64,000 nucleotides of DNA, taken from contig NZ_JACLGO010000018.1 in the NCBI RefSeq assembly GCF_014219065.1, forward strand, positions 1 to 64,000. The letters are read 5' to 3'. Source of the DNA: Halopseudomonas xiamenensis. Its GTDB lineage: Bacteria; Pseudomonadota; Gammaproteobacteria; Pseudomonadales; Pseudomonadaceae. The notes below the pieces were generated by a model that made no database searches, had not been told where the DNA came from, and worked only from the letters and a program-made list of their open reading frames with translations. This document shows, in pieces, positions 60,390 to 62,729 of the stretch; position 1 is the stretch's first letter; every line of letters begins with the position of its first letter. Both the position numbers and the translations under genes were made by a program.

Positions 60390-60890
60390 ATGTCGAATGT
60401 TACTTTGCGCGGCAACCCGGTCACCGTTGGCGGCAAACTTCCCGCGCCTGGCGACAGCGCCCCGGCATTCACCCTGGTAAGCCAGGACCTGTCCGACGTC
60501 AGCCTGGCGTCCTTCGCCGGCAAGCGCAAGATCCTGAATATCTTCCCCAGCGTCGACACCCCGACCTGCGCCACCTCCGTGCGCACCTTCAACACCAAGG
60601 CCAGCAACCTGCCCAATACCGCCGTGCTGTGCATCTCCGCGGACCTGCCGTTCGCCCAGAGCCGTTTCTGCGCTGCCGAAGGCCTGGAGAACGTGACCAA
60701 CCTGTCGACCCTGCGCGGCGCGGAATTCATTCGCAACTACGGCGTAGCGATCGAAGACGGTCCGCTGGCTGGCCTAGCTGCACGCGCGGTGGTGGTGCTG
60801 GATGAGAACGACAAGGTGCTGCACAGCGAGCTGGTTTCCGAGATCGGCAATGAGCCGGATTATGACAAGGCCTTGGCGGCGTTGAGCTAA
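60390..60890 (+). CDS. tpx: Thiol peroxidase
   Basis: Atypical 2-Cys peroxiredoxin of 166 residues that reduces hydrogen peroxide and alkyl peroxides. Peroxidatic Cys60 is in [13 protein letters not shown], and resolving Cys94 in SRFCAAEGL, the usual Tpx pair; an extra Cys81 is also conserved in many Tpx. AGGAG precedes the start. It is the last gene of the conserved core before the accessory region. Confidence 0.96.
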
Positions 60891-60938: not shown

Positions 60939-61080
60939 CATGCCGTTATCTACTTACCATAATCTTGCTTTAGACGAAGTCTGCGTACATAAAGAACAGT
61001 CCCAGCTCGCTCCATCACTCGTCACGTTATTTCGCATAATCTATATTATGTTAAATTTTGTATTTCTCTATAGATGCCCT

Positions 61081-62001
61081 TCAACCAGATCGGTGGCTGC
61101 CATAGTGGCCGTATGGCAAATTTTCAAAACGACAATAACACCCCCTAAACATCATACGTACTGTGCCGATGAGTCCATTCCGCTGCTTAGCAACAATGAT
61201 CTCGGCAATACCTTTATCTTCCGTATCCGGGTGGTACACTTCGTCTCGGTAAACAAACACGATCATGTCCGCATCTCGCTCGCTCACGCCCATCTCACTT
61301 AAATCGAAAAGGATGGGACGTCTTTGAGTAATCTCAAGCGAGTGCTCCATTTCTGATAAAACAACTACCGGGCAATTGAATTTCTGAGCCAGGGATTTGA
61401 GTGTCCGACAGACTTCTGACAACTTACGTTTTTTATTTTTATAGCGATCTTCCCTGCATAGTATTTGCTGGAGATTGTCCACTATGACTAAGTCTATCCC
61501 ATCGTTTTTGCATGCTACATATCTGGAGCGGGAGCGTATTTCGGCAAGGTTGATAGCAGAATCGTCAATATAAAGACTGCAGTTCTGCATCGCTGATACG
61601 GCTGAGTCTGCCCGCTCCTGCTCATCAGCATCCAGCTTGCCTTCATACAACCTGAATAGATCGATACGCCCGATGGATGCCAGCATACGCATCGCCAACA
61701 TCTCCGCGGGCAGATCCAATGAAAACACCAGGACGGTCTTGTCGTGGAGCATTGCGTTTTCCGCGATATTCATCGCGAAGGTCGTTGCGCCCATCGCTGG
61801 TTGACCTGCGATAACAATCAGTTCTGCCGGCTGTAGTCCCCTGGTCATTGCGTTCAAGTCATCGAAGCCGGTGTCCAGCCCGGTCTGCCGCGAACCTCTT
61901 TGGCGGTTATATGACACTCTAAGCAGAATGTCCTTCAGCAATATAGGCCCACCATCATTAGATGATGCTTCAAATCCTTTCTCATCGCCCCATATAGTCA
62001 T
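61081..62001 (-). CDS. DnaB-derived RecA-fold protein with a degenerate ATPase site
   Basis: Protein of 306 residues that matches the C-terminal RecA-like domain of the replicative helicase DnaB over almost its whole length (TGFDDLNAMTRGL, MRMLASIGRID, YRDEVYHPDTEDKGIAEIIV, KQRNGLIGTVRM). It lacks the N-terminal domain and most of the linker. Key residues are changed: Walker A reads GQPAMGAT (66-73) with Ala72 for Lys, the catalytic SLE is SLD (Asp96), and the usual SQL is SEM (Glu217). Asp175 of Walker B and the KQR arginine remain. It is probably not an active helicase; a binding or decoy role is inferred. It lies 15 bases after the DUF1643-like gene, in low-GC DNA. Confidence 0.85.
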   Translation of the reverse strand: MTIWGDEKGFEASSNDGGPILLKDILLRVSYNRQRGSRQTGLDTGFDDLNAMTRGLQPAELIVIAGQPAMGATTFAMNIAENAMLHDKTVLVFSLDLPAEMLAMRMLASIGRIDLFRLYEGKLDADEQERADSAVSAMQNCSLYIDDSAINLAEIRSRSRYVACKNDGIDLVIVDNLQQILCREDRYKNKKRKLSEVCRTLKSLAQKFNCPVVVLSEMEHSLEITQRRPILFDLSEMGVSERDADMIVFVYRDEVYHPDTEDKGIAEIIVAKQRNGLIGTVRMMFRGCYCRFENLPYGHYGSHRSG

Positions 62002-62607: not shown

Positions 62608-62655
62608 GTTTTCCCCTATAACCTTGAAACTCTTGTATCTATGGGACCGTCATTT

Positions 62656-62684
62656 TTACTAACGATGCCACCCTAAAGCGTCAA
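62656..62684 (-). promoter_or_regulatory. Candidate promoter of the DUF1643/DnaB-like unit
   Basis: On the minus strand TTGACG (62679-62684) and TAGTAA (62656-62661) are spaced by 17 bases, about 50 bases before the DUF1643-like start. It lies in the 122-base divergent spacer to the PcfJ gene. Confidence 0.35.
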
Positions 62685-62729
62685 TTTCTGTCGTTTAATC
62701 CTGAAATAATTCTCTAACCCCACCCTTTC

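Follow-up and report, generated by a model that had tools for sequence, protein, structure and literature searches.

Replicative DnaB helicases, the proteins of Pfam family PF03796, belong to helicase superfamily SF4, and dominant-negative DnaB alleles exist. In E. coli DnaB numbering, roles have been described for the catalytic Glu E262, for the trans-acting K440 and R442, and for R403, E404 and G406, which contact ssDNA (PMC6391071, excerpt). Motor domains without the N-terminal domain are represented by the RecA-core-only DnaB-like proteins of mycobacteriophages and by the Gp80 truncation of Wildcat, the latter an active helicase (PMC4523182, excerpt). In C. difficile, Walker-A mutants of the helicase lost both self-interaction and loader interaction, and in the G. 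stearothermophilus helicase a mutation of the corresponding Thr left hexamer formation intact (PMC5204125, excerpt). PriA of Deinococcus radiodurans, a replication-restart helicase relative, has been termed a pseudohelicase (PMC4504706, excerpt). As to the site, dif is an integration target of IMEX, and KOPS motifs direct FtsK toward it (PMC5357621, excerpt). Among the papers listed by literature searches of an open-licence collection, none described an ATPase-dead DnaB paralogue, which is weak evidence of absence.

The window analysed here, the whole stretch of 64,000 nucleotides taken from Halopseudomonas xiamenensis, carries a truncated DnaB paralogue, hereafter pseudo-DnaB, which had been noticed in an earlier note made from the letters alone; new beyond that note is its place at dif, within an accessory insert (Table 1). 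Pseudo-DnaB has the linker helix, the whole C-terminal domain and the fold in common with replicative DnaB, and it differs in being without the N-terminal domain, the Walker-A Lys, the catalytic Glu, the sensor Gln and one ssDNA-contact Arg. It resembles the mycobacteriophage proteins in its truncation, but it is without the ATPase residues whereas Gp80 is active; D. radiodurans PriA differs from it in helicase family and role. We propose, with a rough probability of 0.4, that pseudo-DnaB is an ATPase-dead protein of an accessory cassette that would occupy DnaB or loader interfaces. If made and binding, it would represent a dead DnaB subunit of natural origin that has no primase-binding domain, and with it one could test helicase loading as a target of competition between mobile elements.

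Table 1. Features around dif (window positions unless a contig is named)
Feature	Position	Strand	Basis or remark
tpx, left neighbour of dif	60390..60890	+	conserved in the genus members fetched
Chromosomal dif site	61029..61056	+	single in genome; sequence match, relatives, KOPS polarity
Pseudo-DnaB (linker helix and RecA-like motor domain, Walker-A Lys lost)	61081..62001	-	ORF call, Pfam, alignment
Degenerate Walker A, GQPAMGAT	61784..61806	-	pattern match
Orphan gene, 196 aa	62017..62607	-	ends 15 bp upstream of pseudo-DnaB
Divergent intergenic stretch, 122 bp, between two gene pairs	62608..62729	.	
PcfJ-like protein, 380 aa	62730..63872	+	
WYL/WCX regulator	contig C9 63902-64903		start inside the window, end beyond; 29 bp after the PcfJ-like gene

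The pseudo-DnaB gene encodes 306 aa, from the ATG at 62001 to the stop at 61081. Its end-to-end correspondence with the DnaB RecA domain, earlier aligned by eye, agreed with the Pfam DnaB_C profile (PF03796), which was matched from 1 to 255 of 255 over residues 41-294 (247 bits against a cut-off of 27, E 2.2e-73). The N-terminal primase-binding domain is indeed missing, as had been claimed, with the cut lying before the retained linker helix: the frame measures 311 aa from stop to stop, which rules out an N-terminal domain concealed upstream in frame. The 63 DnaBs aligned with it span 430-486 aa in 62 cases, and the remaining row (L058) is short as extracted and has a frame of 474 aa. On the whole-protein equivalog TIGR00665, pseudo-DnaB scored 281 bits against a cut-off of 385, and it stayed under the cut-off of each NCBIfam DnaB model that it matched.

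The alignment comprised 29 loci of relatives, 29 loci of a phylum sample, the two intact copies of the same genome, one locus of a Pseudomonas gingeri contig and two loci of viral contigs, and residues were numbered after E. coli DnaB through a solved-structure alignment. The three ATP-site losses read earlier from the motifs were confirmed: the Walker-A Lys K237 corresponds to A72, the catalytic E262 to D96, and Q384, which we take to be the sensor, to E217. The motifs of pseudo-DnaB read GQPAMGAT, FSLDLP and SEMEHSLE, against GRPSMGKT, FSLEMP and SQLNR in intact DnaB. A further loss concerns the ssDNA contacts, where R403 corresponds to S235 and the Glu and Gly (E404 and G406) are present. 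Columns 72, 96, 217 and 235 hold K, E, Q and R in 63/63 aligned DnaBs. Also retained are the equivalents of T238, of the Walker-B Asp D343, and of the trans-acting K440 and R442 (K272 and R274 of pseudo-DnaB). These residues give good support to the reading of pseudo-DnaB as a DnaB domain without ATPase activity.

At the 62 columns conserved in at least 97% of the DnaBs, pseudo-DnaB keeps 42 residues and changes 20, and because so many are altered, an isolated sequencing error is unlikely and was rejected as the origin of the lost motifs. Forty-three columns are invariant across the 63 DnaBs, phage-type included; pseudo-DnaB agrees with 28 of them and departs at 15. When each row was left out in turn and scored, the rows that followed pseudo-DnaB, all three of them phage-type, changed 12/69, 9/71 and 8/70. 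When the reference was set to the 59 rows without phage-type and element DnaBs, pseudo-DnaB kept 47 of 70 invariant columns (23 changed), the three phage-type DnaBs kept 52, 52 and 53 (18, 18 and 17 changed), and the element DnaB of the same genome kept 65. The three divergent phage-type proteins have Lys, Glu and Gln intact despite their 17-18 changes, so in its count of changes pseudo-DnaB only somewhat exceeds divergent DnaBs whose ATP site is intact. On this alignment, it stands out in having changed the Lys, Glu and Gln of the ATP site as well.

The 28-bp sequence next to the gene matches dif; allowing up to 3 mismatches of 24, the genome has no other match, and the stop codon of pseudo-DnaB lies 24 bp from the site. 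The same sequence stood beside tpx in 7/7 genus relatives with the stretch compared, six of the stretches extending to the globin gene. The KOPS-like motif GGGNAGGG was found on the plus strand in 13/14 cases left of dif and on the minus strand in 8/9 cases right of it within the stretch L040, pointing to dif from both sides (Fisher P 1.6e-4 for the switch in orientation); the number of these motifs in the window is not above shuffles, their orientation being the informative feature. We take this site as the dif of the chromosome. Between tpx and the globin gene, which is followed by a pqqF-like gene (by reading), GC drops from about 0.64 to 0.45-0.55, and the low-GC insert holds four genes in two divergent pairs, namely the orphan gene with pseudo-DnaB and the PcfJ-like gene with the WYL regulator.

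None of these four genes had a match in the stretches of the seven genus relatives. In one genus member (G004) tpx and the globin gene are about 200 bp apart with no insert. Four others (G036, G006, G035 and G007) were read as carrying a tyrosine-recombinase-like gene of 429-448 aa between tpx and dif, which is absent in H. xiamenensis and in G004, and in G025 (contig C5) an inovirus-like set with Zot/pI-like, replication-initiator-like and coat-like genes, again by reading, occupies that place. With G004 empty and other genes present in five members, the interval between tpx and the globin gene is evidently a hot spot for insertions in this genus. As in IMEX (PMC5357621, excerpt), the insert abuts dif, and the inovirus-like set of G025 lies in the same interval; the insert differs in that no second dif-like site was found at its far (globin) end and no integrase or phage gene was seen. 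L040 contains one direct-orientation dif-like site within 8 mismatches of 24; a match in reverse orientation, at 6 mismatches, is no second site but this one read in the other direction. Having no second dif-like site, the insert was not filed as IMEX.

Among the matches listed, the best scores of pseudo-DnaB were with chromosomal DnaBs of one related genus, at 52-54% identity; the genome's own DnaB is 53% identical over residues 34-302, with a lower score. The tree put pseudo-DnaB among the chromosomal DnaBs of Pseudomonadaceae, close to one genus (SH-aLRT 99); its branch measures 2.72 changes per column and carries a long-branch warning. A plain prophage DnaB was rejected on this placement, long as the branch is. 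At the 23 columns that separate that genus from the rest of the family, pseudo-DnaB matches the genus at 6, the rest at 2 and neither at 15. The genome has two intact DnaBs, both with GRPSMGKT. The second of them, on contig 33 (L041 8860-10233), lies beside ParA-, ParB- and SSB-like genes and probably sits in an integrative element. A fourth DnaB match, on contig 82, was under the Pfam cut-off.

Orthologues of pseudo-DnaB were found neither among the matches listed from 194 genomes nor in 150 phylum genomes, and patterns of 8-mer peptides of pseudo-DnaB retrieved none from the genome and viral collections. Tblastn of plasmids and phages gave none among the matches listed (20 or 60 of 1267 and 1106 records), with one plasmid record counted in the 60-80% identity band outside these. 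The matches listed were DnaB-like and at most 55% identical over the domain. An intact Walker A was the rule among homologues, an outcome that the earlier note had named as speaking against its reading, though these homologues are true DnaBs and not orthologues. That note had also proposed looking for homologues that share the lost Lys. Patterns for a Walker-A K-to-A change matched in 22/398 family genomes, where all 22 loci were checked and only that of H. xiamenensis encodes a DnaB relative; in 350 class genomes the one match was its own copy, and seven viral contigs had a match and none of them a DnaB relative. The patterns partly fix the codons of the motif, so other losses of Lys would escape them. 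No other K-to-A DnaB was thus seen in the 398 family and 350 class genomes, and what did share comparable losses were two distant plasmid proteins.

These two came from six DnaB_C proteins picked by eye at the distant end of 60 plasmid records sampled down the ranking; five of the six are labelled DnaB-like helicase C-terminal domain-containing and one replicative DNA helicase, and the Walker-A Lys is retained in four and lost in two. The protein of Deinococcus aetherius pDAETH-4 (L170 1096-1998) has 300 aa and, like pseudo-DnaB, no N-terminal domain; its Lys is Arg, its Glu is Asp and its Gln is lost. Apart from itself, its best plasmid match had 36% identity and its best phage match 31%; a peptide-pattern scan of viral contigs gave no match. 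That of a plasmid of Streptomyces sp. NBC_00582 (L168 391-2061) is longer, at 556 aa, with the Walker-A Lys replaced by Pro and the catalytic Glu and sensor Gln positions changed, the alignment being gappy at the sensor. Their identities to pseudo-DnaB are 29.7% and 26.8%, respectively, and the residues that replace the lost ones differ. Both plasmid cases suggest that ATP-site loss recurs; counting pseudo-DnaB, such proteins have apparently arisen on more than one occasion, with a single example seen of each. It is unlikely, in our estimate, that mobile elements repeatedly make an ATPase-dead DnaB motor domain which sequesters or jams the helicase loading of competitors, with the dif, Deinococcus and Streptomyces copies as independent cases; if so, it would be the replication-fork counterpart of other pseudoenzyme inhibitors. 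On a plasmid of Pseudomonas frederiksbergensis (L171 1419-4533) two different annotated dnaB genes stand in tandem.

The earlier note had argued that pseudo-DnaB was selected and did not arise by random decay, and this claim found indirect support only. In a neutral simulation from its sequence to 32% amino-acid change, the runs averaged 5.3 stops and just one of the 300 was stop-free, so that long neutral drift after the loss is unlikely given the open frame. The changes are also unevenly placed: in the 62-column set there are zero past residue 242, that is in the last 15 columns (P 0.001, with the boundary set post hoc), and in the 70-column set there is one, P277L. Against the claim, the phage-type DnaBs are nearly as divergent. 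A single copy with no orthologue gives no dN/dS, so selection on pseudo-DnaB cannot be shown. It is possible that the gene died recently. In that case it would be what is left, the C-terminal half, of a DnaB that came from a related genus or a mobile element, functionless and caught before its first stop, an account that we regard as possible but somewhat doubtful. It would fit the single copy found, the missing N-terminal half and the many changed conserved columns, as well as a location at dif where genus members carry other insertions, one of them inovirus-like. The 17-18 changes in 70 columns of the phage-type DnaBs mean that much of the divergence could predate the loss, and 17% of the simulated neutral genes were stop-free after 10% amino-acid change. 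Such relics do occur, as an unannotated DnaB C-terminal fragment lies beside an IS4 transposase on a plasmid of Calothrix sp. 336/3 (L172 1201-1707). However, drift as far as 15 of 43 never-varying columns usually leaves stops, the 62-column set shows no change in its final 15 columns (one change with the stricter row set), and the frame, the start and the spacing to the upstream gene are intact.

The check by structure prediction was run, and pseudo-DnaB fitted the DnaB fold: the AlphaFold2 model had a pLDDT of 82.3 and a pTM of 0.80, and its best PDB matches were DnaB chains, including those of DnaB-DciA (8a3v) and of the DnaB-DnaC interaction domains (6kza). The input was pseudo-DnaB with 45 of the 63 DnaB rows, leaving out 16 rows closely related to others, L071 (its match is interrupted by a stop) and L002 (its range included the stop of L002 itself); because it consisted of DnaBs only, the model indicates fold compatibility and is no independent proof. 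The linker helix was modelled at residues 22-35 with low confidence (block pLDDT 54-69).

The binding role proposed above would run as follows. An insert beside dif, presumably acquired horizontally, carries pseudo-DnaB, which retains linker helix and RecA-like fold together with the trans residues and has lost those that bind and hydrolyse its own ATP, as well as one ssDNA-contact Arg. The protein, presumably made and folded, would act by binding, most likely by occupying a DnaB-DnaB or a DnaB-loader interface, either as a dead subunit or as a decoy to which loaders of invading phages or plasmids bind, and the WYL regulator of the insert may control it. We favour this role because the linker helix, the fold and the trans residues are kept while the cis residues are lost, because the 306-codon frame is open against the neutral simulation, and because the gene lies in a low-GC accessory insert, absent from the relatives sampled, whose WYL regulator belongs to a class frequently found near defence systems (PMC9122601, excerpt). 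Against it stand the loss of interactions in the C. difficile Walker-A mutants (PMC5204125, excerpt), the low confidence of the linker helix, and the want of an orthologue or of within-species variation to show selection. Very improbably, in our view, pseudo-DnaB would enter intact DnaB rings as a helper, lending its Lys/Arg pair to the neighbour and altering speed or loading with no block. The kept equivalents of K440 and R442 and the two intact DnaBs of the genome would suit such a subunit, but the ssDNA-contact Arg is lost and ring entry without ATP binding is doubtful.

The other genes of the insert bear on the binding role as well. The orphan gene and pseudo-DnaB, on the same strand, likely form an operon, to judge from their spacing. 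The only relatives of the orphan gene were found on three Arcobacter plasmid records, at 40% identity, and a two-row profile of it detected only its own copy in 378 phylum genomes; phage and viral searches gave no useful result. It had no match in Pfam, NCBIfam, PADLOC or PHROGs, and its fold prediction was not usable (pLDDT 36). On one Arcobacter record (L039 7980-8582) the relative has a 5'-nucleotidase on one side and a type I restriction-modification gene on the other. That single record and the 15-bp gap to pseudo-DnaB on one strand are what would speak for a repurposed scaffold, in which pseudo-DnaB makes no contact with DnaB and pairs with the orphan-gene product in a small module for defence or plasmid exclusion. 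We think this unlikely, as no DnaB-like match was found within about 8 kb of the Arcobacter relative and the orphan gene has no match to a family in the four collections. The gap between the gene pairs holds one weak inverted repeat (12-nt arms, 83% complementary) that extends into the orphan gene; Rfam and tRNA scans of the contig end gave nothing of use, and promoter and terminator predictions were no more than in shuffles.

A WYL-controlled defence cassette has in common with the insert the WYL regulator, and it differs in that PADLOC found no known defence effector in the insert, which counts against the binding role. PADLOC matched WYL models, a Cas3c model on the C-terminal part of the WYL protein and, weakly, mad8 on pseudo-DnaB (24.5 bits). 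WYL regulators of the BrxR family had a defence system downstream in 164/347 cases (PMC9122601, excerpt), a figure that would bear on the insert if its WYL protein belongs to that family. Also against the binding role, other WYL loci were fetched from the genus, 19 in number, and all were without a relative of PcfJ, the orphan gene or pseudo-DnaB within about 1.5 kb. A PcfJ match occurred in 2/16 genomes searched. By reading, the PcfJ-like and WYL genes are adjacent and divergent in one genome (G080, L117 7839-9960), near transposase-like and possibly CARF-nuclease-like genes, and in another (G057, L118 6222-8669) the PcfJ-like gene adjoins an AbiE-like pair.
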